Assembly: GCF_003058225.1 (NCBI RefSeq)
Contig: NZ_QBUG01000012.1
Span: 1 to 64,000, forward strand
Direction: 5' to 3'
DNA length: 64,000 nt
DNA from: Promicromonospora sp. AC04
Lineage (GTDB): Bacteria > Actinomycetota > Actinomycetes > Actinomycetales > Cellulomonadaceae
The notes beneath the pieces are model-generated. The model made no database searches, was not told the DNA's origin, and worked only from the letters and a program-made list of their open reading frames with translations. The position numbers and the translations under genes are program-made. Shown here one piece after another: positions 1,421 through 19,005 of this stretch; within the stretch, counting starts at the first letter, position 1; each line of letters starts with the position of its first letter.

Positions 1421-2434
1421 TCAGCAGCGCTTGCTCCGCAGCGAGCGGACCTCGACGTAGGAGCGCTGGGCGTTGCCGAACGAGTCGGCCGGGTAGCCCG
1501 GCGCCGGGACCGTCGCTGCGTTGTCCTGCTCCCAGACGCCGTGCCGCTGCCCCCCGCCCGGGAGCGCCGACAGGAACTCGGTGTACGGCAGGTCGCCGAT
1601 CCCGAACTCCACCATGTCGTAGCCCGCGGAGCTCTCCGGGTTGACCTGCCCGTCCTTGAGGTGCAGGAGCGGGTACCGGTACGGGTTGCGCTTGATGTAG
1701 TCCACCGGCTCGAAGCCGGGGTACCGGTGCTGGCCCACGAAAGCCCAGAAGACGTCCATCTCGAGGAAGACGGTCCTCGGGTCGGTGTTGTCGTAGAAGA
1801 CGTCGTAGAGGCGCACGTCGGGGTCGTCGGTGGCGAAGCTGAACTCCCCGTCGTGGTTGTGCTGGTAGAACTTCAGGCCGCGAGCGCGCGCCGCCGCGCC
1901 GAAGCCGTTGAACTGCTCGGCCGCGGCGAGGTACCCCGCGACCGTGCGGTCCCCGGTCGGGGCCTGGGCCGTGCCGATGTGCTTCATGCCCAGGATCTCG
2001 GCGTTGTCGAGCTCGAGCTCCATGTTGTTCGCGAAGTCCGAGATGCCGCGGTGCGACCCGACGGCGCGCAGGTCGTTGTCGTCCAGCAACTGCCGGATCT
2101 CCTGCGGGGTTATCGCCCCGACCTGGCCCTGCGTGTACCCGGCGAACTCGACCTCCTTGTACCCGATGGCCGAGAGGCGTTCGAACACGGCGCGGAAGCC
2201 GAGCGAGGACACCTTGTCCCGGATCGAGTACAGCTGGATGCCGATGTTGCCCGGCGGCACGAGCACGCGGCCCCCGCCGGCGGCCGTGGTGGCGGCGGCC
2301 GTCGTCGGGGTGAGCGTGGAAGCTGCGGCGCTGCCCGCGAGGGCCGCGCCGGCGAGCGACGCCGCGCCCACGGCCACGGTGCCGCCAGCCAGCCTCAGGA
2401 AGTTCCTGCGGTCGACGTCAGTGCGTGGTTCCAT
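1421..2434 (-). CDS. Tat-exported sugar phosphate isomerase/epimerase-like (AP endonuclease 2 family) protein
   Basis: A 337-residue TIM-barrel protein of the xylose isomerase-like family, last gene of the operon. A twin-arginine signal is clear (DRRNFLRLAGGTVAVGAASL, residues 8-27), so it should act outside the membrane, which is unusual for this mostly cytoplasmic fold. Barrel motifs include IGIQLYSIRD, YKEVEFAGY, KFYQHNHDGEF and FLEMDVFWAF; the acidic and His residues there match the metal site of the family. Members near DUF1080 and Gfo/Idh/MocA genes act as 3-keto-glycoside lyases or epimerases, and I infer such a role. ATG 2434 shares its A with the TGA of the upstream dehydrogenase (TGATG), with a GGAG ribosome site upstream, so translation is coupled to a secreted partner. 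Confidence 0.85.
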   Translation of the reverse strand: MEPRTDVDRRNFLRLAGGTVAVGAASLAGAALAGSAAASTLTPTTAAATTAAGGGRVLVPPGNIGIQLYSIRDKVSSLGFRAVFERLSAIGYKEVEFAGYTQGQVGAITPQEIRQLLDDNDLRAVGSHRGISDFANNMELELDNAEILGMKHIGTAQAPTGDRTVAGYLAAAEQFNGFGAAARARGLKFYQHNHDGEFSFATDDPDVRLYDVFYDNTDPRTVFLEMDVFWAFVGQHRYPGFEPVDYIKRNPYRYPLLHLKDGQVNPESSAGYDMVEFGIGDLPYTEFLSALPGGGQRHGVWEQDNAATVPAPGYPADSFGNAQRSYVEVRSLRSKRC

Positions 2435-5088
2435 CACTGCTCTCCTTCGGTCCGAGCGGCCCCGGACGGGCCGGTCGAGTTCTGTTCGGCCGGCGGGGGC
2501 GTCCCGACGCCCTCGCCGACCATGGTCACCGTGTCGAGGTCGAGACCGCCGGTCGCCGTGATGTAGAGCGTCCCCGTGCGTTCGCGGTCGCGGAACGACA
2601 GCCCGACGTCGCGCCACGTGCGCGCGTTCACCTTGGCCGTCGCGAACGGCTTCGCCGTGGGCGAGCCCCAGCGCAGCTGGAGCGTGCCCCTGCCGCGTAC
2701 CGACGCGGTGGCGCTGTTGATGCCGGACAGGCTCACCCGCTCCATGGCGAGCGAGTCCCGTTTGCCCAGGCCGGCCACGTACGCGCCGGCCGAGGCCGCC
2801 TCGTCCTCGACCACCTCGGCGCCCTCGAGCGTCGCGTGCTCGGCCTCCTGCAGCTTGGGGTTCAGGCGCAGCGTCGCCTCGCCCGCGGCGGGCGGCAGGC
2901 CGTTGGCCCCGTTATCGGTGTAGGTGATGACGACGGCGCCGTACAGGTGCGCGCCCGCGCCGTGCTCCGGGGAGTTGGGATCGGTCGGGAAGACGCCCGT
3001 GCAGCCCGTGCCCGACACCTCGGGGTGCGCGTGCTGGTCGTGGCCGAGGCCGTAGGACCAGGCGACCCGCGTGCAGACGGTCTCGGTGCCGTCCTCGGCG
3101 TCCTCGGTGGACACCTGGAACGGGACGTCGTCGCCCCAGTCGAAGAACCCGCCGTCGGCCGGGAGGTCGACGGTGATCTCGGGCGCCTGGTTGCCCACGC
3201 TGATCGACGTCGAGGTCAGCGTCCGCTTCCCGCTGCCGTCTGTGACGCGCAGGCGAGCCGTGTAGACGCCGAGCTCCGTGTAGGTGTGGGTGACCTCGGG
3301 GCCGGTCAGGTCGAAGGTGCCGTCACCGTCGACGTCCCACTCGTAGGTGAGCGCGTCGCCGTCCGGGTCGCTCGACGCGGACGCGTCGAACGCGACCTCC
3401 AGCGGTGCGGACGACGACGACTCCGGCGTGGCCGTGAACGACGCCTGCGGCGCCTTGTTCCCCTCCGCGTAGTCGATCCGGTACAGGCCCGCGTCCGGGT
3501 TGGCCCGGAAGAAGCCGTCGCCGTACTCGAGCACGTACAGGGAGCCGTCCGGACCGAACTCGAGGTCCATCGGGTTGTCGTTGATCGGCATGCCGGCGGC
3601 CTGCAGATCGGCGTTGGGGAAGAAGTTCTCGATCTCGCCGACCTCGAACGTGGACCAGTCCACGCTGAACGCCGCGTAGTAGTCCTGGGAGAACTCGCCG
3701 AAGAACGCCTTGCCGTCCCAGACCGAAGGGAGCTTGCCCGGCGCGGTGTTCTCCGCGTCGTAGTGGTAGACCGGGCCGCCCATCGGGGCCTGGCCGCTGC
3801 CCGACCCGAAGTTCACGAGCTCGTCGCGTGGCTGCTGACCCGGCTGGTCCCCGTAGTAGACGGTCGCCGCGCGGGACGGCGGCAGGTCGATCAGGCCCGT
3901 GTTCCACCGGGAGCTGTTCTGCGGTGCCGCGCAGTCGAAGAACTCGCGCGGCGTCGCGGTCTCGAAGTTCCACTCGTTGTAGGCAGCGTTCGGCCCGTGA
4001 CAGTACGGCCAGCCGGAGTTGTGGGGGTCGTCGAGGCCGACGACGTTCCACTCCACGTAGCCCATCGGCCCACGGTCGGCGTTCGCCGCGGCGGCGTCGG
4101 GCCCGTAGTCGCCCCACGACAGGGAGCTGGTCTCCGGGTCCACCTCGATGCGGAACGGGTTGCGCACGCCCATCACGAAGATCTCGGGACGGGTGCCCTC
4201 GGTGCCCGGGGCGAACAGGTTGCCCTCGGGGATGTCGTAGGTGCTGCCCGCGCCCGGCGGGGCACCGGCCGGGATCTCGTCCTTCACGTCGATCCGCAGG
4301 ATCTTGCCCCGCAGGTCGTTCGTGTTGCCCGCGCCGCGACGCGAGTCGAAGCCCGGGTTCATGTTCGGCGCGTCGTTGTTCGGGGCGTACCCGCTGGCGC
4401 CCGGCGTGCCGGCCGGGGTGTTGTCACCGGTCGACAGGTAGAGATAACCCTCGCCGTCGAAGTCGATGTCCGCGCCGACGTGGCAGCACTGTCCTCGCTG
4501 CGTCGTGACGTCCAGGATCGGCTGCTCCGACGCGGGGTCGAGGGCGTCGCCCGTCCAGGTGAACTTCGACAGGCGGTTCACGCCCAGCCACCGGTCCCAG
4601 TAGCTCGCGTCCTCGCCGGCGGGCAGGGTGTTGGGTGCGTTGCCCGTCGGCGTGTCCGTCTCGCCGTCGCCGTCGGCGTCCCGCGGCGCGTACACGAGGT
4701 AGACCTCGTTGCTCGTGGCGAAGTCCGGCGCCAGGGCTATGCCCTGCAGGCCGTCCTCCGAGTTCGCGTACACGTCGAGGGTGTTGACGACCCTGGTGAC
4801 GCCCGTCGCCGGGTCGGTCAGGCGGACGTCGCCGTTGCGGGCCGTGTGGAGCACCCGCTGGTCGGGCAGCACCGCCATGTCGATCGGCTCACCGACGTCC
4901 TTGGTGAGCAGGATCTTCTCGTAGTTGGCCCAGTCGGTAGCGGCCGCGGCCGCGACGTCGTGGGCTTCGCCGTCGTGGGCGGACGCCGTCGGCGTGGCCA
5001 CGAGTGCCGCCCCGACCAACGCGGTCGCGGCGAGCGCCGCGAACGCCGTCTGATGCCGCGCATGAGCGCGTGCCTGGATACTCTTCAT
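2434..5088 (-). CDS. secreted PQQ-type (glucose/sorbosone) sugar dehydrogenase with PKD domain
   Basis: An 884-residue exported protein. An Ala-rich Sec signal occupies residues 1-38. A six-bladed beta-propeller of the soluble glucose/sorbosone dehydrogenase family follows (about 55-545), with EDGLQGIALAPDF, the paired-Cys GQCCHVGADIDF, NDLRGKILRI and MGVRNPFRIEVDP. Then comes a PKD domain (about 550-640; DPDGDALTYEWDVDGDG) and a C-terminal beta-sandwich resembling a family 6 carbohydrate-binding module (about 740-865). Relatives oxidise sugars with a quinone cofactor. C3 oxidation of glycosides is inferred from the neighbours, not from a diagnostic residue. The start has GAGGAG 10 nt upstream. 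A 174-nt gap separates it from the preceding isomerase-like gene, so an internal promoter is possible. Its stop overlaps the Tat isomerase-like start. Confidence 0.88.
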   Translation of the reverse strand: MKSIQARAHARHQTAFAALAATALVGAALVATPTASAHDGEAHDVAAAAATDWANYEKILLTKDVGEPIDMAVLPDQRVLHTARNGDVRLTDPATGVTRVVNTLDVYANSEDGLQGIALAPDFATSNEVYLVYAPRDADGDGETDTPTGNAPNTLPAGEDASYWDRWLGVNRLSKFTWTGDALDPASEQPILDVTTQRGQCCHVGADIDFDGEGYLYLSTGDNTPAGTPGASGYAPNNDAPNMNPGFDSRRGAGNTNDLRGKILRIDVKDEIPAGAPPGAGSTYDIPEGNLFAPGTEGTRPEIFVMGVRNPFRIEVDPETSSLSWGDYGPDAAAANADRGPMGYVEWNVVGLDDPHNSGWPYCHGPNAAYNEWNFETATPREFFDCAAPQNSSRWNTGLIDLPPSRAATVYYGDQPGQQPRDELVNFGSGSGQAPMGGPVYHYDAENTAPGKLPSVWDGKAFFGEFSQDYYAAFSVDWSTFEVGEIENFFPNADLQAAGMPINDNPMDLEFGPDGSLYVLEYGDGFFRANPDAGLYRIDYAEGNKAPQASFTATPESSSSAPLEVAFDASASSDPDGDALTYEWDVDGDGTFDLTGPEVTHTYTELGVYTARLRVTDGSGKRTLTSTSISVGNQAPEITVDLPADGGFFDWGDDVPFQVSTEDAEDGTETVCTRVAWSYGLGHDQHAHPEVSGTGCTGVFPTDPNSPEHGAGAHLYGAVVITYTDNGANGLPPAAGEATLRLNPKLQEAEHATLEGAEVVEDEAASAGAYVAGLGKRDSLAMERVSLSGINSATASVRGRGTLQLRWGSPTAKPFATAKVNARTWRDVGLSFRDRERTGTLYITATGGLDLDTVTMVGEGVGTPPPAEQNSTGPSGAARTEGEQ

Positions 5089-5227
5089 CCGTGATGCAGC
5101 TCCTCGTCGAGTTGGTCACGCCGGCCGGGTCCCGTCCGCATCCCATTCGTGCGGGGCCCGGTCTTCTACTCCCGCGTCGTACGGCGACGCCGGGGTGGTG
5201 CAGGTTCGTTCCTGGTCGTACCTCCCT

Positions 5228-5278
5228 GTCAGCGGGTCGGCCGCGTCAGCGGGTCGAGGACGTCAGCGGGTCGAGAAT
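5228..5278. repeat. three tandem 17-bp repeats at the isomerase stop codon
   Basis: GTCAGCGGGTCG begins at 5228, 5245 and 5262, an exact 17-nt period. The third copy contains the TGA stop of the cytoplasmic isomerase-like gene (5263-5265). The array sits in the 174-nt gap before the next operon gene. It could be a duplicated 3' end or a binding array; nothing else identifies it. Confidence 0.6.
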
Positions 5279-6264
5279 GCGGCGTCGAACGCCGAGTCCG
5301 GCGCGTCGTACGCGTGCGAGCGCACGAACTCGAGCGCCTCGGGTGCGCCGACGAGGCGGTCCATGCCCGCGTCCTCCCACTCGACGGAGATCGGGCCGTC
5401 GTAGCCGATCGTGTTGAGCATCCGGAACGCGTCCTCCCAGGGGACGTCGCCGTGCCCGGTCGACACGAAGTCCCAGCCGCGGCGCGGGTCGGCCCACGGC
5501 AGGTGCGACGACAGGCGGCCGTTCCGGCCGTTCGTCATGCGCTTCTTCGTGTCCTTGCAGTCCACGTGGTAGATCCGGTCCTTGAAGTCCCAGAGGAAGC
5601 TGACCGGGTCCAGGTCCTGCCACACCATGTGGCTGGGGTCCCAGTTGAGGCCGAACGCCTCGCGGTGGCCGATCGCCTCGAGCGTCCGGACGGTGGTCCA
5701 GTAGTCGTAGGCGATCTCGCTGGGGTGCACCTCGTGGGCGAACCGGACGCCGACCTCGTCGAACACGTCGAGGATCGGGTTCCAGCGGTCGGCGAAGTCC
5801 TGGTAGCCGGCCTCGATCGCGGCGTCGGAGACCGGCGGGAACATCGCCACGTACTTCCAGATCGCGGAGCCGGTGAAGCCGATGACCGTCTTCACCCCGA
5901 GCTTGGCGGCGAGGCGGGCGGTGTTCTTCATCTCTTCCGCCGCGCGCTGTCGCACGCCCTCGGGATCGCCGTCGCCCCACACCCGGTCCGACACGATGTC
6001 GCGGTGCCGCTGGTCGATCGGGTCGTCACAGACGGCCTGGCCCTTGAGGTGGTTGGAGATCGCCCACACCTTCAGACCGTGCCGCTCCAGCAGGTCGAGG
6101 CGCCCGGCGACGTACTCGTCGTCGTCCCAGCGCCACGGGTCCAGGTGGTCGCCCCAGCAGGCCAGCTCGAGTCCGTCGTAGCCCCACTCCGAGGCGAGGC
6201 GTGCCACCTCCTCGAGCGGTAGATCGGCCCACTGGCCGGTGAACAGGGTGATCGGTCGTGCCAT
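5263..6264 (-). CDS. cytoplasmic sugar phosphate isomerase/epimerase-like protein
   Basis: A 333-residue TIM-barrel protein of the xylose isomerase-like family with no signal peptide, so cytoplasmic, unlike its Tat-exported relative at the end of the operon. Visible family features are [20 protein letters not shown] at the N-terminus, [49 protein letters not shown], the metal-site segment [19 protein letters not shown] and [13 protein letters not shown]. The Glu/Asp/His set suggests a divalent-metal enzyme acting on a sugar or keto-sugar. The start has GGAGG 6 nt upstream. It lies inside the 3' end of the ThuA/dehydrogenase frame, which overlaps it by 193 nt. An intracellular lyase or epimerase step on imported 3-keto sugar is my inference. 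Confidence 0.88.
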
Positions 6265-9200
6265 GGTTTCCTCCGTCGTAGGTGCCTGGTCGGGGGGCGG
6301 GGCGACGGCGGCTGGTACGCCACGCCGTCCCCCACGAAGTCGAGCCAGTTCACGTTGGACTGGCCCGCCGTCTGCACGAAGTACAGCTTCCCGGTGCCTT
6401 CTGGGACGTCGTGCAGCTCGGCGGTGACGTCGGTGTACACCTGCCAGTCGCCCGTGGCCGGCACCGTCACGCTGCCGACCTCCGGGCCGTCGGGCGCGCC
6501 CCAGCGCACCGAGATCGGCCCGCCGCCGCTCGGCGAGGCCGCGCGCAGCGTGACCGCGTCGATCCCGTGGAGGCTGAGCGGTTCGTAGGCCCACCAGTCG
6601 TCGGGCTCGATGAACCCGATGTTCTGGCCGCCGCCCGCGCTGTCGCCCGTGCCCTCGCGCTGCACGCCGGGGTCGCCGCCGCTGGTCGAGCCCGCGAGCC
6701 GGCCGGTGTCGGTGAAGAACTCGGCCTGGAGCCGCTTGGGCTGCAGCACCTGCAGGTCGCTGCCGGTGAGCGGGATGCCCACCGCGCCGCCGTCGTCCGG
6801 GAACGTGGCCTCCAGCGTCCAGAAGAGGTTCGCCTCGGCGTCGTGACCACCGTCCGCGGCCGTCTGCAGCACGCCCGTGCAACCGGTCAGCTCCTCGATG
6901 GGGTGCGAGTGCGCGTCGTGGCCCAGGGAGGTGTACAGCGTGACGTCGGCGCAGTCCACCGTCCCGTCCGGGTCGTCGACGGTTATCTCGTACTGGACCT
7001 GGTCGCCCCAGGCGAAGATGCCGCCGTCGTCCGGGAACGTGATGGACACCGTGGGTGCGGTGTTGCCGACGACTATCGTCACGTTGGCCACCCCGGTCCC
7101 GCCCGCGGCATCCGTCGCGGTGAGCTGAGCCGTGTACGACCCGTTCTCCGTGTAGGTGTGCGCCGGGTCCGCCTCGGTCGACGTCGTCCCGTCGCCGAAG
7201 TCCCAGTGCAGCGTGAGGGGCTCGCCGGCGGGGTGGCGGGTGCCCTCGGAGGAGAACTGCACGGCCAGCGGGGCCGCGCCGTCGGTCACGTCGGCCGAGG
7301 CCTGCGCGATCGGCGACGGGTTCCCCTGGCTGTAGTCCACCCGGTAGACCCCGCTGGTGTCGTTGTTGCCGCCGAAGCCGGAGCCCCAGTCGATGACGTA
7401 CAGCGCGCCGTCGGGCCCGAAGTCCATGTCCATGGGCCGGTCGAAGCCCGCCGTGGGGTCCAGGACCCCGGGCAGCACCCGGTTGATGTCGACCAGGTCG
7501 TCCCGCTGGTCGCCGGCGAGCTGGAACGAGTAGACCTTGCCCTGGTTCCACTCGCCGAACAACGCCTTGCCGTCCCAGTAGGCCGGCCACTGCACGTCGG
7601 ACTCGAGCTCCGAGTCGAAGTCGTAGACCGGCCCGCCCATCGGCGCGCCGCCGCCCCCGATCTCGGGGAAGTCCGGGTTGCCGCCGTAGCCGTACCAGAC
7701 CTCCGCCTCCTGGGCGGGCGGCAGCTGGGTCAGGCCCGTGTTGCTCGGCGAGTCGTTGACGACGCCGCCCGCGCAGTCGAACGACGCACCGGACTCGCCG
7801 GTGGCGAAGTCGTAGTCGACGTACGCGTTGTTGGCGCCCGTGCAGTACGGCCAGCCGTAGAAGCCCGGCTCGCTGACCACGTTCCACTCGACGGTGCCAG
7901 CGGGCCCGCGGGCGGGGTCGGCAGCGCCCGCGTCGGGCCCGTAGTCGGCGACCAGGATGTTGTCGGTCGCCTGGTCCACGCCGATGCGGAACGGGTTGCG
8001 GAAGCCCATGGCGAAGATCTCGGGGCGCGTCAGCTCGGTCCCCGGCGCGAACATGTTGCCCTCGGGGATCGTGTACGAGCCGTCCCGCTCGGGGTGGATG
8101 CGCAGCACCTTGCCCCGCAGGTCGTTCGAGTTGGCCGCCGTGCGCTGCGCGTCGAAGTTCTCCCGGCCCGGCCGCTCGTCGATCGGGTCGTAGCCGCTCG
8201 ACTCGAACGGGTCGGTGTTGTCCCCGGTCACGAGCACGAGGTTGCCCTGGGAGTCGAACTGCATGTCGCCGCCCGCGTGGCAGCACCGCTCGCGCTGCGT
8301 GGGAACCTTCAGGACCGCCGCCTCGCTCGCCGGGTCGATCGTCCCGGCCGCCGGGTCGTAGGTGAACCGCGAGACCCGGTTGTGCGGGCCGTCCTCGCCG
8401 ACGTCCGCCGGCGACCAGTACAGGTAGACCCAGTGGTTCGTGGCGAAGCCGGGGTCGAGCACGATTCCCGTGAGGCCGTCCTCGTTGGCGAGCGTCACGT
8501 CCAGGGTCATGGCCGTGGTGGTCAGGTTCGTCTCCGGCGAGATCAGCTGCACCCGGCCGTCGCGTTCCACGTAGAACACCGTGCCGTCGGGCGCGACGTC
8601 GAGCATCATCGGGTTGGCCGTGTTCTCGTCCAGCGGCACCGTCTCGTAGCTCGCGTCCTGCGTCGCGTTGCAGTCCGAGTCGACGACGCCGGCGGCCGTC
8701 TGGATGCCGCCCAGCAGGTGCTCCTGGAACGCCGGCTCCGCGTACGACTCGTCCGTGTGCCCGCCGCCCGTGTACCAGGACCGGCCGCCGTCGTACACCT
8801 GGCACCAGGCGGTCGGGTGGTCGGCGCCCATCGCGCCCGAGCCGGGGTCGTAGCTGTCCTCGTCCAGGCTGGCCAGCACGTGCACGTCGCCACGCGGGTT
8901 GGACCGGAAGTTGTACCACTCGTCGTGCCGGTCCCAGCGGTCCGGCAGGTGCGCGGTGGAAGGGTGCGCGGGGTCCTCGACGTCGATCGTCGCGTCCTGG
9001 TTCGCCGGGTGGCTGAGGAAGTAGGCGCCCACCAGGTCGCCGTACCAGGGCCAGTCGTACTCGGTGTCCGACGCCGCGTGGATGCCCGCGTACCCGCCGC
9101 CACCCTGGATGTACCGCTCGAACGCGGCCTGCTGGCCGGCGTCGAGCACGTCGCCAGTGGTGGACAGGAAGACGACCACCTCGTAGTCGGCCAGGCCCTC

Positions 9201-9572
9201 GTCCGAGAAGACGCTCGGGTCCTCGGTGGCGGTGACCGTGAAGTCGTTCGCCGCGCCGAGCTGCGTGATCGCCTCGATGCCGACCGGGATCGAACCGTGC
9301 CGGAAGCCCGTCGTCCTGGAGAAGACGAGCGCGTCGAACGGTTCGGCATGGGCCGGCTTGTCAGGCTTCGGCGGCTTCGGTGGCTTCCCTGGCTTGTCGG
9401 GCTTCGCCGGGCTGCTCGCCGACCGGTCGGCGAGCCCGATGCTCGACGCCGTCTGGGGTGCCGCGGGCGGCTCGACCGCCGAGGCCAGCGCCGCCGGGAT
9501 GCCGAGGGCGGCCACGGCAGCCGCCGCGACCGCCGTCCGCAGGACACGGCGGGTTCGTTGCACGTTTCTCAC
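6072..9572 (-). CDS. secreted ThuA - sugar dehydrogenase - PKD - CBM multidomain protein
   Basis: A large exported protein (1166 codons as read). After an N-terminal signal ([19 protein letters not shown]) and a Lys/Pro linker come a ThuA-like domain (about 77-294; [34 protein letters not shown]), a glucose/sorbosone dehydrogenase propeller (about 307-751; [25 protein letters not shown]), a PKD domain (about 754-834; [12 protein letters not shown]) and a carbohydrate-binding-module-like sandwich (about 946-1082). ThuA proteins are linked to 3-keto-disaccharide use in rhizobia, which fits a role in 3-keto sugar formation or turnover. I chose GTG 9572 because GAGGAG lies 6 nt upstream; a TTG at 9620 is less likely. 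The frame finds no stop after the last domain and runs 193 nt into the next gene, so the last 80 or so residues may be spurious or follow an indel in a C-run near 6290. Confidence 0.82.
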
Positions 9573-9624
9573 CTGGAGCTCCTCATTGAGTCGGGTCAGT
9601 TCTCGTGCGGTGGTGCCCAAAAGC

Positions 9625-10821: not shown

Positions 10822-10896
10822 ACCGCGCCTCCCCCCACTGTTCGCTCACCTGCCGTGTCGCACGCCCGAGCGGGCGTCGTCCGATCCGTCACCGCG

Positions 10897-11952
10897 TCAG
10901 GAGTCGAAGCCGATGGGCAGGTACTCCTCGACGTTGTCCGCCGTGACGACGGGCGCGAAGAGCTGGACCGTGCGCGGCACGCCGATCGATGCGAGGTCGC
11001 TCACCGTCTTGTTCTGGGCGACCAGGCGGGCGAGCTTGACGCCGTCCGCGGCCTGGGTGGAGGGGTAGATGACGGTCGCCTGGACGACGCTGTCACCGGA
11101 CTGGATCAGCTCCATCATGTTGCTGGACCCTGCGCCGCCCACGAGGAAGAACTCGTCGCGGCCGGCGTTCTCGATGGCGGCGAGCACGCCGACGCCCTGG
11201 TCGTCGTCGTGGTTCCAGATGGCGTCGATCTGGGGCTCGGCGGACAGCAGGTTCGCGGCCGCCTCCTCGCCACCCTCGACCGTGAAGTCGGCGGCGACGC
11301 GCGCGTCGACGTCGAGCCCGCAGTCGTCCAGGGCGTCCTTGAAGCCGTCACTGCGGTCGGTCGTCAGCGGCAGGGCATCGATACCGGCGATCTCCGCGAC
11401 CACCGCGTCCGGGTTGTCACCCAGCTGCTCGCAGATGTAGGTACCCGCGCTCACGCCCATGCCGTAGTTGTCGCCCAGCACCGTGGAGCGGGCGGCGAAC
11501 GGGCTGCTGAACTCGCGGTCCACGTTGATGACGGGGATGCCCGCCTCCATGGCCTCCAGTGCCACGTCCGTCAGGGCGGCGCCGTCGAACGGGAGGAGCA
11601 CGATCGCGTCGACCCCCTGCTCGATGAAGCCCTCGATCTGGCTGATCTGCACGTTGACGTCGTTGGTGCCCTCGGCGACCTGAAGATCGACGTCCTCGTA
11701 CTTCTCGGCCTCGGCCCGGGCCGCCGAGGTGATGGCGCCCATCCAGCCGTGGTCGGCGGCCGGGGCGGAGAACCCGATGACCACCTCGTCGCCGGGCTCG
11801 TCGTTCTCGGTCACCGTGACGGGGCCGGTGGCGGTCTCCTCGGTCTCGCGGGGCTCGTTGCTGGTGCAACCGGCGACGACGAGCGCGGTACACGCCACGG
11901 CGACGAGGGCGCCGGACACCCGGCGCGTGCGAACTGCGATAGACGAAGTCAT
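10897..11952 (-). CDS. sugar ABC transporter substrate-binding lipoprotein (ribose type)
   Basis: A 351-residue extracytoplasmic binding protein. The signal ends in the lipobox LVVAGC, so the mature protein is anchored by a lipidated Cys. The fold is the type 1 periplasmic-binding protein (RbsB-like): VVIGFSAPAADHGWMGAITS opens domain 1, GVDAIVLLPFDGAAL and GIPVINVDREF are the usual strands, and DAIWNHDDDQGVGVLAAIE belongs to domain 2. Asp and Arg residues there normally bind sugar hydroxyls. ATG 11952 was chosen over a GTG at 12042 because GGGAG lies 6 nt upstream and the signal peptide then begins properly. The gene is third in the operon after its ATPase and permease. The ligand is unknown; a 3-keto sugar or disaccharide is inferred from context. 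Confidence 0.93.
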   Translation of the reverse strand: MTSSIAVRTRRVSGALVAVACTALVVAGCTSNEPRETEETATGPVTVTENDEPGDEVVIGFSAPAADHGWMGAITSAARAEAEKYEDVDLQVAEGTNDVNVQISQIEGFIEQGVDAIVLLPFDGAALTDVALEAMEAGIPVINVDREFSSPFAARSTVLGDNYGMGVSAGTYICEQLGDNPDAVVAEIAGIDALPLTTDRSDGFKDALDDCGLDVDARVAADFTVEGGEEAAANLLSAEPQIDAIWNHDDDQGVGVLAAIENAGRDEFFLVGGAGSSNMMELIQSGDSVVQATVIYPSTQAADGVKLARLVAQNKTVSDLASIGVPRTVQLFAPVVTADNVEEYLPIGFDS

Positions 11953-12038
11953 GATGATCTCCCTTGATCCGGGGTGAAGCTGGTTGGCTGGCTGGGACAC
12001 GTACTCGGTTGTGTGCTGGCGCCGGGATGACGGCGAGC

Positions 12039-13016
12039 TCATGTGCTCGTCGCCTTCTCACGCGAGGCGAACCACTGCTGCAGCAGCACGGCGACCACGA
12101 TGATCGCGCCCTTGGCGATCGCCTGGACCGAGCTGTCGAGGTTGTTGAGGACGAAGATGTTGGTGAGCGTCGAGAAGATCAGGACGCCCAGGACGGTGCC
12201 GGTGATGGTGCCGCGGCCGCCGGCCAGCAGCGTGCCGCCCACGACGACCGCCGCGATGGCGTCCAGCTCGAGGAGCGTTCCGTGCGTCGAGGACCCGGCA
12301 GTGGTGCGGGCCAGCATGATCACGGCGCCGATTCCCGCCGTCAGCCCGGCGAGCCCGTACAGGTACAGGGTGTGCCGCTTGATCTTGATGCCCGCCAGGC
12401 GGGACGCCTCCGGGTTGCCACCCACCGCGACGGTGCGCCGTCCGAACGTCGTACGGTTCAGCAGGAACCACCCGGCGGCGGCGACCACGACGAAGATCCA
12501 GACGATCGTCGGCAGGCCCAGCGGGCGAGCCTGGAACACGTCGAAGAACGGCTCCACGTCGACGATCTGCGTGCGCCGTCCGGCGATGATCTCGGCGAGG
12601 CCGCGGGCCGCGGCCAGCATGGCGAGCGTCGCGATGAACGCCGGGACCTTGCCGTACGCGATGAGCGCGCCGTTCACCAGACCCGCGGCCAGGCCGACGG
12701 CCAGAGCGGTGACCACGATGACCCACCAGCCGTAGTCCTCGGCCATGTACTGGGTCGACAGGGTCGAGGCCCAGATCGATGCCAGGCCCAGCACCGCGCC
12801 CACCGACAGGTCGATGCCACCGGACGTGATGACGAAGGTCATGCCGATGCTCACCACGCCGGTCACTGCCGCGAGGCTGAGGATGGTGGTGAGGTTGCCG
12901 GGGCTCATGAATCGCTCGCCGGCGGTCACCGCTCCCACGACGACCAGGAGGATCAGGGCGAACACGAGGCCACCCATTCGCAGGGCTGGGCCCATGAGAC
13001 CCGATCGTGCGCTCAC
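12039..13016 (-). CDS. sugar ABC transporter permease (RbsC family)
   Basis: A 325-residue inner-membrane permease with about eight to ten hydrophobic segments (for example MGGLVFALILLVVVGAVTAG and TIVWIFVVVAAAGWFLL). The family signature SGGIDLSVGAVLGLASIWAS lies at about residues 64-83, and VAVGGNPEASRLAGIKIKRH is the cytoplasmic loop typical of ribose/xylose-type permeases. GTG 13016 overlaps the TGA of the ATPase gene by 4 nt (GTGA), with GGAAGG upstream, so the two are translationally coupled. One permease gene suggests a homodimer, as in the ribose system. Confidence 0.94.
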   Translation of the reverse strand: MSARSGLMGPALRMGGLVFALILLVVVGAVTAGERFMSPGNLTTILSLAAVTGVVSIGMTFVITSGGIDLSVGAVLGLASIWASTLSTQYMAEDYGWWVIVVTALAVGLAAGLVNGALIAYGKVPAFIATLAMLAAARGLAEIIAGRRTQIVDVEPFFDVFQARPLGLPTIVWIFVVVAAAGWFLLNRTTFGRRTVAVGGNPEASRLAGIKIKRHTLYLYGLAGLTAGIGAVIMLARTTAGSSTHGTLLELDAIAAVVVGGTLLAGGRGTITGTVLGVLIFSTLTNIFVLNNLDSSVQAIAKGAIIVVAVLLQQWFASREKATST

Positions 13017-14539
13017 GCGACACTTCCTTCCATGACCAGGTCGAGCACGGCGTGCTCGTCGATTTCGCGGGCCGGGCCCTCGTGGACCGCCTTGCCGTCG
13101 GAGATGACCAGCACGCGGTCCGCGAGGCCGAGCACCTCGGGGATCTCGCTGGACACGACGACCACGGCCGCGCCGTCGTCGGCCAGGCGGCGGATCAGGC
13201 TGTAGATCTCGGCGCGCGCGCCGACGTCGACGCCGCGGGTGGGCTCGTCGAGCAGGAGGACGCGGCAGCCGTGCACGAGCCAGCGGGCGAGCAGCGCCTT
13301 CTGCTGGTTGCCGCCCGACAGGGTGCGCGCGTTGCGGTCCACCGAGGCGGGCCGCAGGTCGAGCGCCTCGACCTGCTCACGCGCCGCGGCACGCTCGGCG
13401 CCCTCGTCGAGCAGTCCCCCGCGCGCGATACGCGCGAAGGTGGACAGGGTGATGTTGCGGTACACGGGCTCGTCCAAGAGCAGGCCCTGGCTCTTGCGCT
13501 CCTCGGGGCACAGGCCAACGCCTGCCGCGACGGCCGCGTCCACACCTGAACGCAGGCGCTTGCCGCCCACGCGCACGCTGCCCGACGTCGACCGCCGGGC
13601 CCCGTAGATCGTCTCCAGGATCTCGGAGCGGCCCGAACCGACCAGGCCCGCCAGGCCGACGATCTCGCCGGCCCGGACCGTGAGGGAAACGTCGTTGAAG
13701 ACGTCGCCGAGCCCGAGGTCCTCGACCTCCAGGACGGGCGCGGCGCCCTCCGGGACGCCGGGGCGGTCGGGGAACGCGTACTCGACCGCGCGGCCCGTCA
13801 TGAGCTTGATCAGGTCGTTCGTCGGCGTGTCCGCGACGAGGAGGCTCGTCGCGACGGTCCGGCCGTCCTTGAGCACGGTGATCCGGTCGCCGAGCTGCCG
13901 GATCTCCTCCAGCCGGTGCGAGATGTAGACGACGGCGACGCCGTCCGCGGTGAGCTCGCGCACGATGCGGTGGAGGTTGCCGACCTCCTCGGAGTCCAGC
14001 ACGGCAGACGGCTCGTCCATGACGACGACGCGCGCGTCGCGCGACAGCGCCCGGGCCAGCGAGACGATCTGCTTGCCCGCGGCGGGCAGGCGGCCGACCT
14101 CGCGGTGCGGCGTGATCTCCGGGTGCCCGAGGCGCTGCATGATCTCGCGGGTACGACGCGCGGCGTCGGACCGGCGGCTGACGCCGCCCCGCGCGAGCTC
14201 GTGCCCGAGGTAGATGTTCTCGGCGACGGTCAGGCCGTCCACGACGTCGAGCTCCTGATAGATCGTCGCGATGCCGAGCTTCAGGGCTGCGACGGGGTCC
14301 GGGATGGTGACCGGCTCCTCATCGAGCAGGATCTCGCCCGCCGTTGGCTGGTGGGCCCCGGCCAGGATCTTGATCAGGGTGGACTTGCCTGCCCCGTTCT
14401 GGCCCAGCAGGCAGTGCACCTCGCCGGGGCGGACCTCGAGGTCCACGCCGTCGAGCGCTCGCGCGCCGGGGAATTCCTTCACGATGCCACGCATACGCAG
14501 CAGAGGCTCCACCGCCTCATGGGGGTCCGCATCGACCAT
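13013..14539 (-). CDS. sugar ABC transporter ATP-binding protein (two NBDs, RbsA/MglA type)
   Basis: A 508-residue tandem ATPase. NBD1 has Walker A GQNGAGKST (about 45-53) and Walker B VVMDEPSAVLD, but its signature is weakened: where LSGGxxQ is expected there is LPAAGKQIVSLARAL. NBD2 shows the degenerate Walker A GLVGSGRSE usual in this family, signature LSGGNQQKALLARWL and Walker B LLLDEPTRGVD. It energises uptake through the adjacent permease. This is the first gene of the 13-kb operon. ATG 14539 follows a consensus-like promoter by only 6 nt after the -10 (TACGTT), so the mRNA should be leaderless; the open frame upstream of it antisense to the ROK gene is not real. Regulation by the divergent ROK protein is indicated by the operator at 14556-14583. 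Confidence 0.94.
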   Translation of the reverse strand: MVDADPHEAVEPLLRMRGIVKEFPGARALDGVDLEVRPGEVHCLLGQNGAGKSTLIKILAGAHQPTAGEILLDEEPVTIPDPVAALKLGIATIYQELDVVDGLTVAENIYLGHELARGGVSRRSDAARRTREIMQRLGHPEITPHREVGRLPAAGKQIVSLARALSRDARVVVMDEPSAVLDSEEVGNLHRIVRELTADGVAVVYISHRLEEIRQLGDRITVLKDGRTVATSLLVADTPTNDLIKLMTGRAVEYAFPDRPGVPEGAAPVLEVEDLGLGDVFNDVSLTVRAGEIVGLAGLVGSGRSEILETIYGARRSTSGSVRVGGKRLRSGVDAAVAAGVGLCPEERKSQGLLLDEPVYRNITLSTFARIARGGLLDEGAERAAAREQVEALDLRPASVDRNARTLSGGNQQKALLARWLVHGCRVLLLDEPTRGVDVGARAEIYSLIRRLADDGAAVVVVSSEIPEVLGLADRVLVISDGKAVHEGPAREIDEHAVLDLVMEGSVA

Positions 14540-14545
14540 GTATCG

Positions 14546-14583
14546 AACGTAGAGGGACTTTTGGCGATCGTCAAGCAAAAGTC
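14546..14583 (-). promoter_or_regulatory. promoter and ROK-type operator of the sugar operon
   Basis: Minus-strand promoter: TTGACG (14569-14574), a 17-nt spacer and TACGTT (14546-14551), then 6 nt to ATG. Over the -35 lies an inverted repeat with arms GACTTTTG (14556-14563) and CAAAAGTC (14576-14583), separated by 12 nt, a good size and position for a repressor operator. A 23/28 identical copy with the same promoter geometry is at 18978-19005. A third half-like GACTTTG lies at 14586-14592, toward the ROK gene. Confidence 0.8.
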
Positions 14584-14614
14584 GAGACTTTGTTGGCCAT
14601 GATTGACTAGAGAC

Positions 14615-15796: not shown

Positions 15797-15814
15797 CCAC
15801 GCACCCCTCCCCCG

Positions 15815-15885
15815 CCGAGATAGAACCAGGGCGAGATGGAACCCCAGTAACGCTGGGGTTCCATCTCGCCCTGGTTCTATCTCGG
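15815..15885. terminator. 33-bp perfect palindromic terminator (GATAGAACC family)
   Basis: Perfect 33-bp arms (15815-15847 and 15853-15885) around a 5-nt loop TAACG lie between convergent genes. The arms begin CCGAGATAGAACCAGGGCGA, closely related to palindromes near 36225, 53992 and 57250, so this belongs to a dispersed family as well as being a terminator. Confidence 0.85.
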
Positions 15886-15890
15886 CAGGG

Positions 15891-18800
15891 TCAGTCCAGG
15901 TTCTTCACCCGGACGTCGCGGTAGTAGATCGTCTCCCCGCCCCCGTGGTTCTGGAGGCCCACGTACCCCTGGGCGAGGTCACGCGCAGGATCGGTGCTGA
16001 CGAAGTCGTTCACCAGCACCCCGTTGAGGAGGACCTTGATGGTCTGCCCCACTACCCGGATCTCGTAGGAGTTCCAGGAGCCCGGCGGGTTCAGCGCCCG
16101 CTCCACGGCCTCCGGGTCCGCACCCTGGAAGGTGTAGATCGCCCCGGTGGTGCGGTCTGGCTCGTCGCTCGCGTCGACCTGGATCTCGTAGCCCTGGTTC
16201 ACGGCGACCCACGGGTCGTTCCCCGGGTTCGGGAAGCCGACGAAGATGCCGCCGTTGTCGTCCTTCACGAGCTTCCAGTCCAGCTTGAGGCTGTACTGCC
16301 CCAGCTCCTGGCCCGTGTACCAGAGCAGACCCATTCCCCCGGTGCTGCGGATCGAGCAGTCGGCCTGGCGGCCGAACGAGCCGGCGCCCGCCAGGCGCCA
16401 CCCGTCAAGGGACTCCAGGGTGCCGTCGAACAGGGCCTGGTAGCCCCGCTCGTAGCGCTCCGGGGTGCAGATGTCCGCGGCGCCGGCCCCGACCTTGAGA
16501 GCGTCGAGGTTGACGTTGCCGTCGTCGTCCTCGTCGTAGCGCAGGGTGATCGTGTTGACGCCCTTCTTCAGCGGCAGGTCGCGTGTGGCCGTGGCCCACG
16601 TCTTCCAGTCGCCCGTGGACTCCAGCGCCCACGGCTCGACCTCCTGGCCGTTGACCAGCACCGATACCTCCTTGGTGCCCTGGAACGGGTTGGGACCGTT
16701 CGAGTAGCGCAGGCTCACGGGCTGGGTGCCCGTGCGCTTGACGGTGATGGTGAAGGTCGCCGAGGCGCCCGGGCTCGTGAAGCCGGCCGCGAATCCGGAG
16801 CCCGAGTACCCGCTGTGCTCGGTGGCCACGTTCGCGGAGCCGCGGAGCGTCGCCTCCTCGGCCTCGTGATACCCGCGCTCGGCGGGGGCCGTGTAGCCCG
16901 GGATCGCGTTGAGCGTGTACCAGGCCTCGGTGTTCCACAGCTCGCGGCCCTCGGCGTCCGCGAACGGGCGCGGGCTGCGCAGATGCACCACGCGGCCGGG
17001 CTCGAGCCCGTCCACGGTGAGCGTGACCTTCGTACGGTCGCGGGAGACCTTGGCGCCCGCGACGAACAGCGGCCGCTCGTCGATCTTCGGCCCGCCGTAG
17101 GCGCGCGTGGGCACGTAACGCCAGTGGTCCATCCGGTACGCCGCGTTGGGGTTCTCGGCGATCTTGGCCACCGCCTCGTCCGACAGCGGCTGCGTGTACT
17201 CGACCACGAACCCGTTCGTGATGGCGCGCATCTCGGTCATGTCGAAGGCGTCCTCGCCGTTCGGCACGAGCTTCTGCAGGCCGTAGCGCAGCTTGCCCGG
17301 CTCGCTCCAGTTACCGCCCTCGCCGATGCCGCCCACGTACAGGGCGCCGTCGGGCCCGACGACGGTGCGGTTGACGCCCGCCTCCAGACCGGCCGAGTGC
17401 CGGAACACCGCGCCCTGGTACTCGCCGTCGACCTGCTCCAGGAAGCCGCGCTGCAGGCCGCCGTAGGTGACGTCACCGAACACCAGCTGGCCCTCGTAGG
17501 GACCCTCCTCCAGCAGCACCGGCGCGCTCGGCGAGTTGCCGATCTCGTTCTGCGGCACCCACAGGGCCGGCGCCGACACGGGCTCGGCGTCGTACGGGCC
17601 CGAGGGGTTGGTGAAGTGGTTGAAGAACTTGCCCTCCTCGATGTGCACCAGCTTGGAGCTGGGCAGCCAGGCACCCTGGTTGTCCATCACGAACATCTCG
17701 CCGTCCGGGCCCTTGACCATGCCGTTGGGCGTGCGCAGACCGCCGGCGACGTACTCGACCTCACCGGTCCTGCGGTCGATCCGGATGGCCGTGCCGCGGT
17801 TCTCGGCGGGCTGCGGGTCCGTGGTGGCACCGCCGTTGTTGATGGCCACCGACAGGTTGACGTAGAAGTAATTCCTGTCGTGCAGCAGGCCGAAGGCGAA
17901 CTCGTGGAAGTTGCCGCCGAACGGCCACTCGGCCACGGTGCGGTGGTCGTCGTAGAAGCCGTCGCCGTCGGGGTCGGTGAGCTCGGTGAGCTTGTCGCGC
18001 TCGGAGACGTAGATCGACTCCCCGATCACGGCCACGCCCATCGGGTTGAACAGGTCGGTGGCGACCTTCTCGACGGTGACCTGGTCCTTGGAGGTGTCAC
18101 CGGTGACGTTGTCGAGCAGGAAGACCTCGCCCGGCTCCGGGTCCTCGACCCAGCCGCCGGGGCTCACCGAGCCGGACGTGAGCACGGCGAGGCGGTCGTC
18201 GTCGGTCCAGTCGAGTCCGGCGACCATGGGCTCGAAGCCCTCGGGTCGCAGGTCGGTGAGGGTGTAGCCCGGGTAGACGGAGTCGAGGCGCATGCCGTCG
18301 CCCGCCGACTCGTCCTGGCCCTCGCAGTACTTGGTGCCCGGGGCCGTAACGCGTACGACGCCGGCCTCGGTGCTCAGCACGCTCTGCGGGACGACGACGA
18401 AGTCGGTGGCACCCGGCGGCCGCCACTCGAGCCGGAGCACGTTGTCGCCCCCGTTCTCGAAGTACTCCACGCGCAGGTCGTGGAACCCGGCCTCGAGAGC
18501 TACGGTGCCCTCCTTCGGCTCCGCCCCGTGCAGGCCGTCATGGTCGATGACGACTTGGTCGTCGATGACCAGGCGCGAGCCGTCGTCGCTGGTGAGCCGG
18601 AACTCGTAGTTGCCGGCTGCCGGGACGTCCAGGTTGGCGAGCGCGTGGGCGATGAAGTGTTCGCTCATCCCGAAGTCCGCGTCCGTCGCGTAGTCGATGG
18701 TCGGGGCGAGCCGGTCGACGTTCGGGGTCTGACCCGAGCGGAGCGTGCACAGCTCGCTGAGATCGCGAGCCAGGTCGTAGGTGCGGAGGGTGACGCCTGG

Positions 18801-18932
18801 TTCCTGGGGCGGCAGATCGTCCGCCGCCGTCGCGGCGGGGACCGTCCCGGCCAGCATCACCGCTGTCAGTGCCACGGCGGTCGCGCCTGCGGCTGCCTGT
18901 CTCGTGCGGGAATTGGTTCCACGTTGTCGCAT
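15891..18932 (-). CDS. secreted PA14 - dehydrogenase propeller - CBM - DUF1080 protein
   Basis: A 1013-residue exported protein. Order: Sec signal (1-36); PA14 sugar-binding domain (about 50-195; YEFRLTSDDGSRLVIDDQVV); beta-propeller sugar dehydrogenase-like region (about 207-615; FGGNFHEFAFGLLHDRNYFY, GGLRTPNGMVKGPDGEMFV); CBM6/35-like sandwich (about 690-810); C-terminal DUF1080 domain (about 815-1012; GWRLAGAGSFGRQADCSIRS, DNGGIFVGFPNPGNDPW, GSWNSYEIRVVGQTIKVLLN). DUF1080 proteins hydrolyse or hydrate 3-keto-glycosides, so one polypeptide may both make and cleave the 3-keto sugar. ATG 18932 has GAGGAG 5 nt upstream. Its promoter carries the same operator as the ABC operon although it is transcribed separately beyond the convergent ROK gene. 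The dehydrogenase activity is inferred from fold; cofactor residues were not verified. Confidence 0.87.
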   Translation of the reverse strand: MRQRGTNSRTRQAAAGATAVALTAVMLAGTVPAATAADDLPPQEPGVTLRTYDLARDLSELCTLRSGQTPNVDRLAPTIDYATDADFGMSEHFIAHALANLDVPAAGNYEFRLTSDDGSRLVIDDQVVIDHDGLHGAEPKEGTVALEAGFHDLRVEYFENGGDNVLRLEWRPPGATDFVVVPQSVLSTEAGVVRVTAPGTKYCEGQDESAGDGMRLDSVYPGYTLTDLRPEGFEPMVAGLDWTDDDRLAVLTSGSVSPGGWVEDPEPGEVFLLDNVTGDTSKDQVTVEKVATDLFNPMGVAVIGESIYVSERDKLTELTDPDGDGFYDDHRTVAEWPFGGNFHEFAFGLLHDRNYFYVNLSVAINNGGATTDPQPAENRGTAIRIDRRTGEVEYVAGGLRTPNGMVKGPDGEMFVMDNQGAWLPSSKLVHIEEGKFFNHFTNPSGPYDAEPVSAPALWVPQNEIGNSPSAPVLLEEGPYEGQLVFGDVTYGGLQRGFLEQVDGEYQGAVFRHSAGLEAGVNRTVVGPDGALYVGGIGEGGNWSEPGKLRYGLQKLVPNGEDAFDMTEMRAITNGFVVEYTQPLSDEAVAKIAENPNAAYRMDHWRYVPTRAYGGPKIDERPLFVAGAKVSRDRTKVTLTVDGLEPGRVVHLRSPRPFADAEGRELWNTEAWYTLNAIPGYTAPAERGYHEAEEATLRGSANVATEHSGYSGSGFAAGFTSPGASATFTITVKRTGTQPVSLRYSNGPNPFQGTKEVSVLVNGQEVEPWALESTGDWKTWATATRDLPLKKGVNTITLRYDEDDDGNVNLDALKVGAGAADICTPERYERGYQALFDGTLESLDGWRLAGAGSFGRQADCSIRSTGGMGLLWYTGQELGQYSLKLDWKLVKDDNGGIFVGFPNPGNDPWVAVNQGYEIQVDASDEPDRTTGAIYTFQGADPEAVERALNPPGSWNSYEIRVVGQTIKVLLNGVLVNDFVSTDPARDLAQGYVGLQNHGGGETIYYRDVRVKNLD

Positions 18933-18967
18933 GAGCTCTCCTCGGTCGGCGTTGACCTTGCGGCTAG

Positions 18968-19005
18968 AACCTACGAGGACTTCTGTCGGACGTCAAGCAA
19001 AAGTT
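18968..19005 (-). promoter_or_regulatory. promoter and second ROK operator, DUF1080 gene
   Basis: Minus-strand TTGACG (rc at 18991-18996), a 17-nt spacer and TAGGTT (rc at 18968-18973), about 35 nt before the start codon. The overlapping 28-bp element at 18978-19005 (plus strand GACTTCTG ... CAAAAGTT) matches the operon operator at 23 of 28 positions and sits at the same distance (4 nt) from the -10. This ties both transcripts to one regulator. Confidence 0.78.

Follow-up and report, generated by a model that had tools for sequence, protein, structure and literature searches.

What is a sugar-utilisation cluster for when it encodes several secreted dehydrogenase-like proteins and no recognisable glycoside hydrolase, and where would the electrons collected by such proteins go? 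This question is raised by a gene cluster of Promicromonospora sp. AC04, situated at positions 1421-19005 of the window, i.e. the whole stretch of 64,000 nucleotides analysed here (contig NZ_QBUG01000012.1 of assembly GCF_003058225.1, positions 1 to 64,000). All genes described in the initial annotation are present as judged by GC-frame analysis and Pfam searches: a ROK-family regulator gene (rok) on the plus strand and nine genes on the minus strand, which encode a ribose-type ATP-binding cassette (ABC) transporter with its sugar-binding protein (SBP), permease and ATPase, a Gfo/Idh/MocA oxidoreductase (Gfo), two TIM barrels (TIMa and TIMb) and three propeller proteins (Table 1). The Pfam search gave no glycoside hydrolase family, in line with that annotation, and ThuA and DUF1080, which it had taken for genes of their own, turned out to be domains fused to the propellers. 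Our most valuable result lies beyond the window: small laccases are tied to a set of ThuA, GSDH, DUF1080 and cupredoxin domains, and this set is linked to the cluster in the window by a shared operator and also in loci without it.

The co-regulation proposed at the outset gains support from two near-identical 28-nt sites in the window, each with inverted arms (GACTTTTG...CAAAAGTC). The search pattern was derived from these two sites themselves, and it had no match in 100 shuffles. As a 27-nt pattern with 23 fixed bases and up to three mismatches allowed, it occurs three times in the 6.85-Mb genome, and the reversed control gave no match. Some 230 nt downstream of the third copy (C7:370176-370202) begins a run of three genes, which encode a small laccase (SLAC), a ThuA-GSDH-PKD-DUF1080 fusion protein and a secreted cupredoxin. 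The third site and the same three genes were found in the strain's own genome and all 12 congeners (13/13 Promicromonospora), and the two-site main cluster in 12 of the 13, own genome included; in G189 the ATPase/rok site was found, and the second main-cluster site was not found within three mismatches. This third operon, lying outside the window, offers an electron acceptor that was absent from the model of the initial annotation.

The laccase of the third operon is a two-domain multicopper oxidase of the Tat (twin-arginine translocation) type with the motif SRRSILTG; signal peptides and Tat motifs were judged by eye throughout. Its two cupredoxin domains carry all type 1, 2 and 3 copper ligands, and among solved structures small laccases match it best (3t9w, E 1e-128). 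In the fusion protein the ThuA domain contains an F5/8C insert, and the cupredoxin gene product combines a plastocyanin-type domain with OmpL47-type repeats; a PDB search with the latter protein gave no match. The copper sites are strictly conserved among the relatives described below: all laccase ligands (10 His, 1 Cys) are kept in 61/61 laccase open reading frames called, and the cupredoxin ligands His/Cys/His/Met in 72/72. A type-1 copper carrier between a dehydrogenase and an oxidase would be the simplest reason for such a triad.

The linkage extends far beyond the genus. Genome contigs were scanned with the propeller alignment, and among the loci of the 80 best of at least 577 relatives a SLAC relative was present in 76 fusion loci and both SLAC and cupredoxin in 74. 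Relative to the fusion gene, the laccase was upstream and the cupredoxin downstream in 46 loci, both were upstream on the same strand in 16, the cupredoxin was upstream on the other strand in 8, both were downstream in 3, and one locus had the laccase upstream and the cupredoxin downstream on the other strand; two loci lacked the cupredoxin and four had neither. Since the gene orders vary in this way, the linkage has outlived rearrangement.

In the converse test the laccase alone served as query and the fusion was not used. At the level of the phylum it matched 5 of 149 genomes, and at that of the class 49 of 394 (own genome included), yielding 54 SLAC loci in 50 other genomes. GSDH, ThuA and DUF1080 domains were each found at 47 of these loci and a cupredoxin domain at 49; all four lay within about 10 kb of the SLAC gene at 46 of the 54 loci, corresponding to 46 of the 50 genomes. 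Roughly half of the genomes with SLAC loci belong to one genus and the sets of 80 and 54 loci overlap (L160/L158, L164/L147, L167/L144), so these counts are not independent.

Well-studied laccases are among those linked. Over 277 residues the crystallised laccase 3t9w shows no difference from that of L115 (Amycolatopsis tucumanensis), where the order is fusion, cupredoxin, laccase, TIM barrel; the laccase of the third operon is 66% identical to the L115 enzyme. In genus f5 g30 the set has been broken up and rearranged: in L185, for example, the laccase gene points away from ThuA-GSDH, after which come cupredoxin and DUF1080 genes. The L185 laccase, 57% identical to that of the third operon, is closest to 5lhl and to 3cg8, which we take to be the Streptomyces coelicolor SLAC. 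The tie to the window cluster is likewise seen in gene neighbourhoods. Relatives of the ATPase and Gfo (64-70%) and of ROK (43-44%) lie beside the laccase set in Peterkaempfera and Streptomyces (L092, L096, L104, L111), ATPase, ROK and GSDH2 relatives (60-76%) adjoin it in Georgenia (L131), and ThuA-GSDH (about 48%) and TIMa (77%) relatives occur in L141 and similar Amycolatopsis loci. In L177 a run of ThuA-GSDH, TIMa, Gfo, SBP, permease, ATPase and ROK genes is directly followed by the laccase set.

Two side observations concern these distant loci. In Amycolatopsis xylanica, TIMa and the laccase operon are preceded by a phosphodiesterase-type gene and an extra TIM barrel (L133:3361-5807), and a secreted-looking protein with no Pfam match is encoded just 3' of the cupredoxin gene in L095 (14232-15245), its cluster being represented in 16 of the 80 loci.

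Control by ROK is supported by the position of the sites. A regulator with a helix-turn-helix and a conserved site at its own and at target promoters, as looked for in a candidate ROK regulon, are both present. The operator adjoins rok in the 12 congeners and also in Georgenia, and of the 30 loci from two other genera (L019-L048, genera g2 and g4, a subset of all matched places) 29 have it in the interval separating relatives of ROK and of the ATPase (66-79% identity). Georgenia thermotolerans (L131) carries sites at three promoters, those of ATPase/rok, GSDH2 and the laccase; an Isoptericola metagenome-assembled genome (L090) has the site upstream of a run of TIM barrel, laccase and fusion genes. 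ROK would bind the operators and is probably a repressor. In the wider family the pattern was present in 133 of 221 genomes, own genus included, with no reversed-control match among the rows listed. Some places are less regular: L077 has a site without any regulon gene, and in G113 and G117 (genus g6) the operators head partly different genes.

In G117 and G113 the second operator heads genes for a further Gfo enzyme and an ABC transporter (L076 15531-19901; L078 1-2226; 36-48% identity), and the content of the regulon therefore varies. Two weak operator-like sites with three mismatches each (G189 C1:1231319 and G194 C20:9033) adjoin no gene of the window regulon, L062 having only a partial ATPase match (45%); we put them down to chance or to some other regulation. 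A TIM barrel that looks similar to the extra one of Amycolatopsis xylanica, and that we take to be ebo-cluster-like, lies in G189 (L061, C1:1226000-1238000) at a distance of about 5 kb from a weak operator.

With regard to the chemistry, the relation to 3-keto sugar pathways claimed in the initial annotation is supported by homology of three proteins. The characterised kin of Gfo is 6a3f (E 3e-93), whose PDB entry name is 'putative dehydrogenase' and which we take to be levoglucosan dehydrogenase; 4h3v, named only oxidoreductase, also matches. Against the NCBIfam levoglucosan dehydrogenase model NF052479 Gfo scored 373 bits, below the cut-off of 650. TIMa matched 8ro4, a 2-hydroxy-3-keto-glucal hydratase (E 4e-34), and 2zds (E 5e-169), and in the alignment with 8ro4 Glu, Asp, His and Glu are conserved, presumably as metal ligands. 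An alternative would be catabolism of a cyclitol of the inositol type, with TIMa as inosose dehydratase and Gfo as inositol dehydrogenase. In NCBIfam, IolE (44 bits, cut-off 290) and IolG (108 bits, cut-off 355) do match weakly, but both are far under their cut-offs, the 3-keto-pathway enzymes match better, and it is not evident what carbohydrate-binding modules (CBMs), DUF1080 and ThuA would do in the use of inositol; we consider this alternative very improbable.

The cleaving enzyme is probably represented by members of the DUF1080 family (PF06439), which scored 132 bits in the window and 113 bits in the third operon. BT2157 of this family hydrolyses 3-ketotrehalose, and CCNA_01705 is proposed to hydrolyse 3'-ketolactose in the periplasm (PMC9007349). 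Together with the third operon, the regulon comprises six secreted enzyme-like proteins and one secreted copper protein; one Gfo and one TIM barrel have no signal peptide. This makes the proposed transfer of oxidation to the outside of the cell plausible. In the levoglucosan pathway there are two dehydrogenases (LgdA and LgdC) and two isomerase-type enzymes (PMC7676230), and the presence of only one of each without signal peptide here fits oxidation and cleavage outside. A DUF1080 match in two pieces and two open frames (G000:C1:664086-664906) is perhaps a broken gene or a sequence error.

Taken together, the interpretation given in the initial annotation is supported in part and is extended by the third operon. 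In the reading we prefer, whose chances we regard as about even, the ROK regulator, probably a repressor, would control three promoters, and secreted GSDH-type propellers would oxidise glycosides, most likely at C3, while the ThuA, CBM, PA14 and DUF1080 modules fused to them would keep them on carbohydrate. DUF1080 would then cleave the 3-keto-glycoside, possibly assisted by the secreted TIM barrel. Electrons would pass from the propeller to the secreted cupredoxin and on to the two-domain small laccase, which would reduce O2. The keto-sugar or 2-hydroxy-3-keto-glucal would be imported by the ribose-type ABC transporter, hydrated by TIMa and reduced to a normal hexose by Gfo. Gene content, the conservation of operators and copper ligands and the joint conservation of laccase, cupredoxin and the three domains are observations; binding and repression by ROK, the C3 position, the substrate, the cofactor of the propellers, electron flow to the laccase and the order of the steps are what we infer.

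Only two of the three propellers in the window pass the Pfam cut-off for GSDH; the third, which had also been described as dehydrogenase-like, gave a DUF7133 match of 23.7 bits, below the cut-off of 27. An AlphaFold2 model of the GSDH domain, obtained with 34 sequences (pLDDT 78.6, pTM 0.87; an earlier model from 20 sequences with pLDDT 57 was not used), is predicted to resemble the pyrroloquinoline quinone (PQQ) sugar dehydrogenases 2ism, 1c9u and 2g8s, followed by hedgehog-interacting protein (HHIP) and AA12 in the Foldseek ranking, and a six-bladed GSDH fold is supported by both Pfam and model. H126, R219, N220 and the GPD loop are invariant in 34/34 GSDH domains, and the His, Arg and Asn align with residues of soluble glucose dehydrogenase (sGDH), presumably its catalytic H144 and its R228 and N229 near PQQ. 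The 34 domains also share an invariant Cys-Cys directly before the putative catalytic His. Since aldose dehydrogenases (2ism, 1c9u and 2g8s) come out best in comparisons of fold and of sequence, the propellers might simply oxidise free aldoses or sugar ends at C1, with DUF1080 and the TIM barrels serving separate ends. We find this quite unlikely, given that a propeller is fused in one chain to ThuA and DUF1080 and is co-regulated with a levoglucosan-dehydrogenase-like Gfo and an enzyme resembling 2-hydroxy-3-keto-glucal hydratase.

Several observations weigh against extracellular C3 oxidation coupled to the laccase, the first of them concerning the cofactor. The sGDH residues K377, R406 and R408 are presumably the anchors of the PQQ carboxylates; in the alignments the place of the Lys is taken by Asn, Ser or Gln and that of the second Arg by Met, while the two ThuA-GSDH proteins compared retain the first Arg, which is changed in GSDH2 and the fusion. 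PqqC gave no match in the strain's own genome, nor did the control genomes in that search. In the genomes of 42 of the 80 fusion loci it had matches in 16, of which 15 were over the cut-off, leaving 27 of the 42 not over it; those 15 show that the search is able to find PqqC. PQQ can be taken up, so that synthesis by the host is not strictly required, and since the PQQ-dependent CcSDH (see below) also lacks several PQQ residues, PQQ may still be the cofactor. Of the quinone-type dehydrogenase proposed in the initial annotation, the GSDH fold, the putative catalytic His and the Arg-Asn pair are present, but the Lys and, in most copies, the Arg anchors are changed, and pqqC was not found in the genome; use of PQQ by the propellers is doubtful, and with anchor loss and the PqqC results their redox role is putative.

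The same changes, the negative search for pqqC and the presence of HHIP, a GSDH-fold binder, among the fold matches would fit propellers that are redox-dead and only bind or cleave carbohydrate, with Gfo oxidising the substrate in the cell as in known pathways. The invariance of the putative catalytic residues noted above argues otherwise, as does the fungal GSDH-fold enzyme CcSDH, which lacks several PQQ residues and yet is PQQ-dependent (PMC4133262). Moreover, the single Gfo would have to open the pathway as oxidase and close it as reductase, roles filled by LgdA and LgdC in the levoglucosan pathway (PMC7676230). We judge redox-dead propellers to be highly unlikely.

Other adverse points come from the genomes. 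Four of the 80 fusion loci had no SLAC in the stretch searched (L099, L154, and also L112 and L125, whose fusion genes begin at a contig end), and in some fusion loci the laccase relative is only 42-49% identical. No GSDH was found near the SLAC gene at 7 of the 54 SLAC loci (L192, L204, L205, L208, L211, L212 and L213), of which L204, L205 and L208 do have a cupredoxin; L167, cut by a contig end, showed no cupredoxin, and 8 of the 54 loci were without at least one partner. The operator pattern had 10 sites in 8 of the 80 distant loci (reversed control 0), all 8 from Promicromonospora, Isoptericola and Georgenia; the loci of Micromonospora, Amycolatopsis and Streptomyces among them showed no site, so that regulation must differ there, and for these lineages ROK control is not claimed. 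The DUF1080 family also holds THTE_1561, a member with endo-xanthanase/lichenase activity on non-keto substrates (PMC9007349), which qualifies the absence of a recognisable glycoside hydrolase as well. Finally, the support as a whole comes from genes and sequences.

SLAC also oxidises phenols in vitro, which speaks for a different role of the third operon: DUF1080, ThuA and the TIM barrels would free a phenol that the laccase, together with the cupredoxin, oxidises or polymerises, and the regulon would dismantle phenolic plant glycosides or lignin-carbohydrate. The S. coelicolor small laccase oxidises 12 of 23 substrates, including caffeic and ferulic acid and flavonols (PMC3918160), a laccase mutant of S. 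ipomoeae (SilA) solubilised less lignin and respired about 40% less on wheat straw (PMC5675413), and a known 3-keto eliminase acts on a flavonoid glucoside (PMC10628242). Such a role would, however, leave the type-1 copper protein, strictly conserved and encoded in the same operon, without a clear task and the dehydrogenase-like propeller without an electron acceptor, and we regard it as unlikely.

Extracellular C3 oxidation has partial parallels in known systems. The levoglucosan pathway (LgdA/LgdB1/LgdB2/LgdC) shares a C3 dehydrogenase, a sugar-phosphate-isomerase-type eliminase and hydratase, a reductase and a clustered sugar ABC transporter; it differs in the NAD-linked oxidation by LgdA, and the legend to its cluster names no DUF1080, propeller or laccase (PMC7676230). 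In the 3'-ketolactose pathway of Caulobacter (LacABC plus DUF1080) oxidation and the proposed DUF1080 cleavage also take place outside the cytoplasm, but the dehydrogenase is membrane-bound, as opposed to the secreted GSDH propeller, cupredoxin and laccase seen here (PMC9007349). Fungal CcSDH (AA12) resembles the propellers in being an extracellular GSDH-fold dehydrogenase with a CBM, an attached electron-transfer module and several PQQ residues absent; its module is a cytochrome b, whereas here a separate cupredoxin and laccase, and fused ThuA and DUF1080, are found (PMC4133262). All copper ligands of the two-domain small laccases (3cg8 and the Amycolatopsis enzyme 3t9w) are kept in the regulon laccase; no ThuA, GSDH or DUF1080 partner appeared in the laccase papers looked up by term. 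Nor was a link between ThuA and sorbosone dehydrogenase or between laccase and DUF1080 described in the titles and beginnings of abstracts searched, most subscription journals being outside their scope. The Bacteroides BT2156-BT2159/Alistipes 3-keto glycan pathway (Nature 2024) reportedly has the DUF1080, AP_endonuc_2 and Gfo families in common with the regulon, and the TIMb matches 8tcd and 8tcr presumably come from that work; we know of no secreted propeller, cupredoxin or laccase in it.

Table 1. Features of the window cluster, with position, strand and basis of assignment
Feature	Position	Strand	Basis
TIMb, AP_endonuc_2 TIM barrel, secreted, Tat-type motif RRNFLR	1421..2434	-	PF01261; PDB sequence matches 8tcd/8tcr/8tcs
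GSDH2, secreted GSDH propeller - PKD - CBM6-like	2434..5088	-	Pfam GSDH 85.7 bits; CCH motif
TIMa, AP_endonuc_2 TIM barrel without signal peptide, 2-hydroxy-3-keto-glucal hydratase-like	5263..6264	-	Pfam; PDB 8ro4, 2zds
ThuA - GSDH propeller - PKD - CBM6, secreted	6072..9563	-	Pfam; congener form L065; AlphaFold2 model of GSDH domain
Gfo/Idh/MocA oxidoreductase without signal peptide, levoglucosan-dehydrogenase-like	9625..10821	-	Pfam; NCBIfam NF052479; PDB 4h3v, 6a3f
SBP, ribose-type sugar-binding protein	10897..11952	-	Pfam Peripla_BP_4
Sugar ABC permease	12039..13016	-	Pfam BPD_transp_2
Sugar ABC ATPase, two ABC_tran stretches	13013..14512	-	Pfam
Operator 1, between ATPase and ROK genes (divergent)	14556..14583	+	Pattern search
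ROK-family regulator with winged helix-turn-helix	14603..15796	+	Pfam; NagC/Mlc-like below NCBIfam cut-off
Near-perfect hairpin, 38-nt arms, between convergent ROK and DUF1080 genes	15810..15890		Folding energy and z-score
PA14 - propeller (DUF7133-like) - CBM35/6 - DUF1080, secreted	15891..18932	-	PF06439 132.4 bits
Operator 2, upstream of DUF1080 protein gene	18978..19005	+	Pattern search

Some details of the architecture deserve mention. The start codon of TIMb (ATG at 2434) overlaps the stop codon of the preceding GSDH2 gene, and the CBM_6 match of GSDH2 is sub-threshold (21.1 bits, Pfam cut-off 28.9). The ThuA-GSDH protein has 1163 aa in the window as against 1870 aa in the congener L065, the C-terminal modules of the L065 form being absent, and its last 64 codons or so overlap the TIMa gene in another frame. 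The same overlap is seen in G191 (L069), and a sequencing slip is therefore unlikely. The protein is short in the window strain (6072-6270) and G191, and nine congener loci have about 3 kb extra before TIMa; the 1870-aa protein (L065:13391-16582) carries two LamG-like (DUF1349/GH43_C2) modules and is followed by a small secreted, membrane-anchored-looking protein with no Pfam match. In G189 the ThuA-GSDH match covers just 840 nt. The hairpin (-82.6 kcal/mol, z -12.8) is possibly a two-way terminator; it recurs at about 16 other sites of the genome (36 matches in total over both strands), as in a REP-like family.

Small laccases have long been crystallised and engineered, and many entries for them are found among the PDB matches of the regulon laccase. 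Nevertheless, one paper describes most characterised bacterial laccases as having functions that are still unknown (PMC3527528), and a 2026 paper describes the roles of two-domain oxidases as poorly understood (PMC13151041). The linkage described here gives small laccases a concrete set of partners, namely a sugar dehydrogenase, a cupredoxin and 3-keto-glycoside hydrolase domains, and the regulon thus suggests a job for enzymes that are well studied but unexplained. More generally, and tentatively, since we think it somewhat less probable than not, the small laccases of actinomycetes may exist to serve as terminal oxidase in a respiratory chain outside the cell, in which ThuA-GSDH-DUF1080 proteins would oxidise glycosides at C3, perhaps with a cofactor other than PQQ in view of the Cys-Cys beside the His, the cupredoxin would be the carrier and the laccase would pass the electrons to O2, lignin oxidation being a side activity. 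If true, this would amount to an oxidative opening of glycosidic bonds outside the Gram-positive cell.

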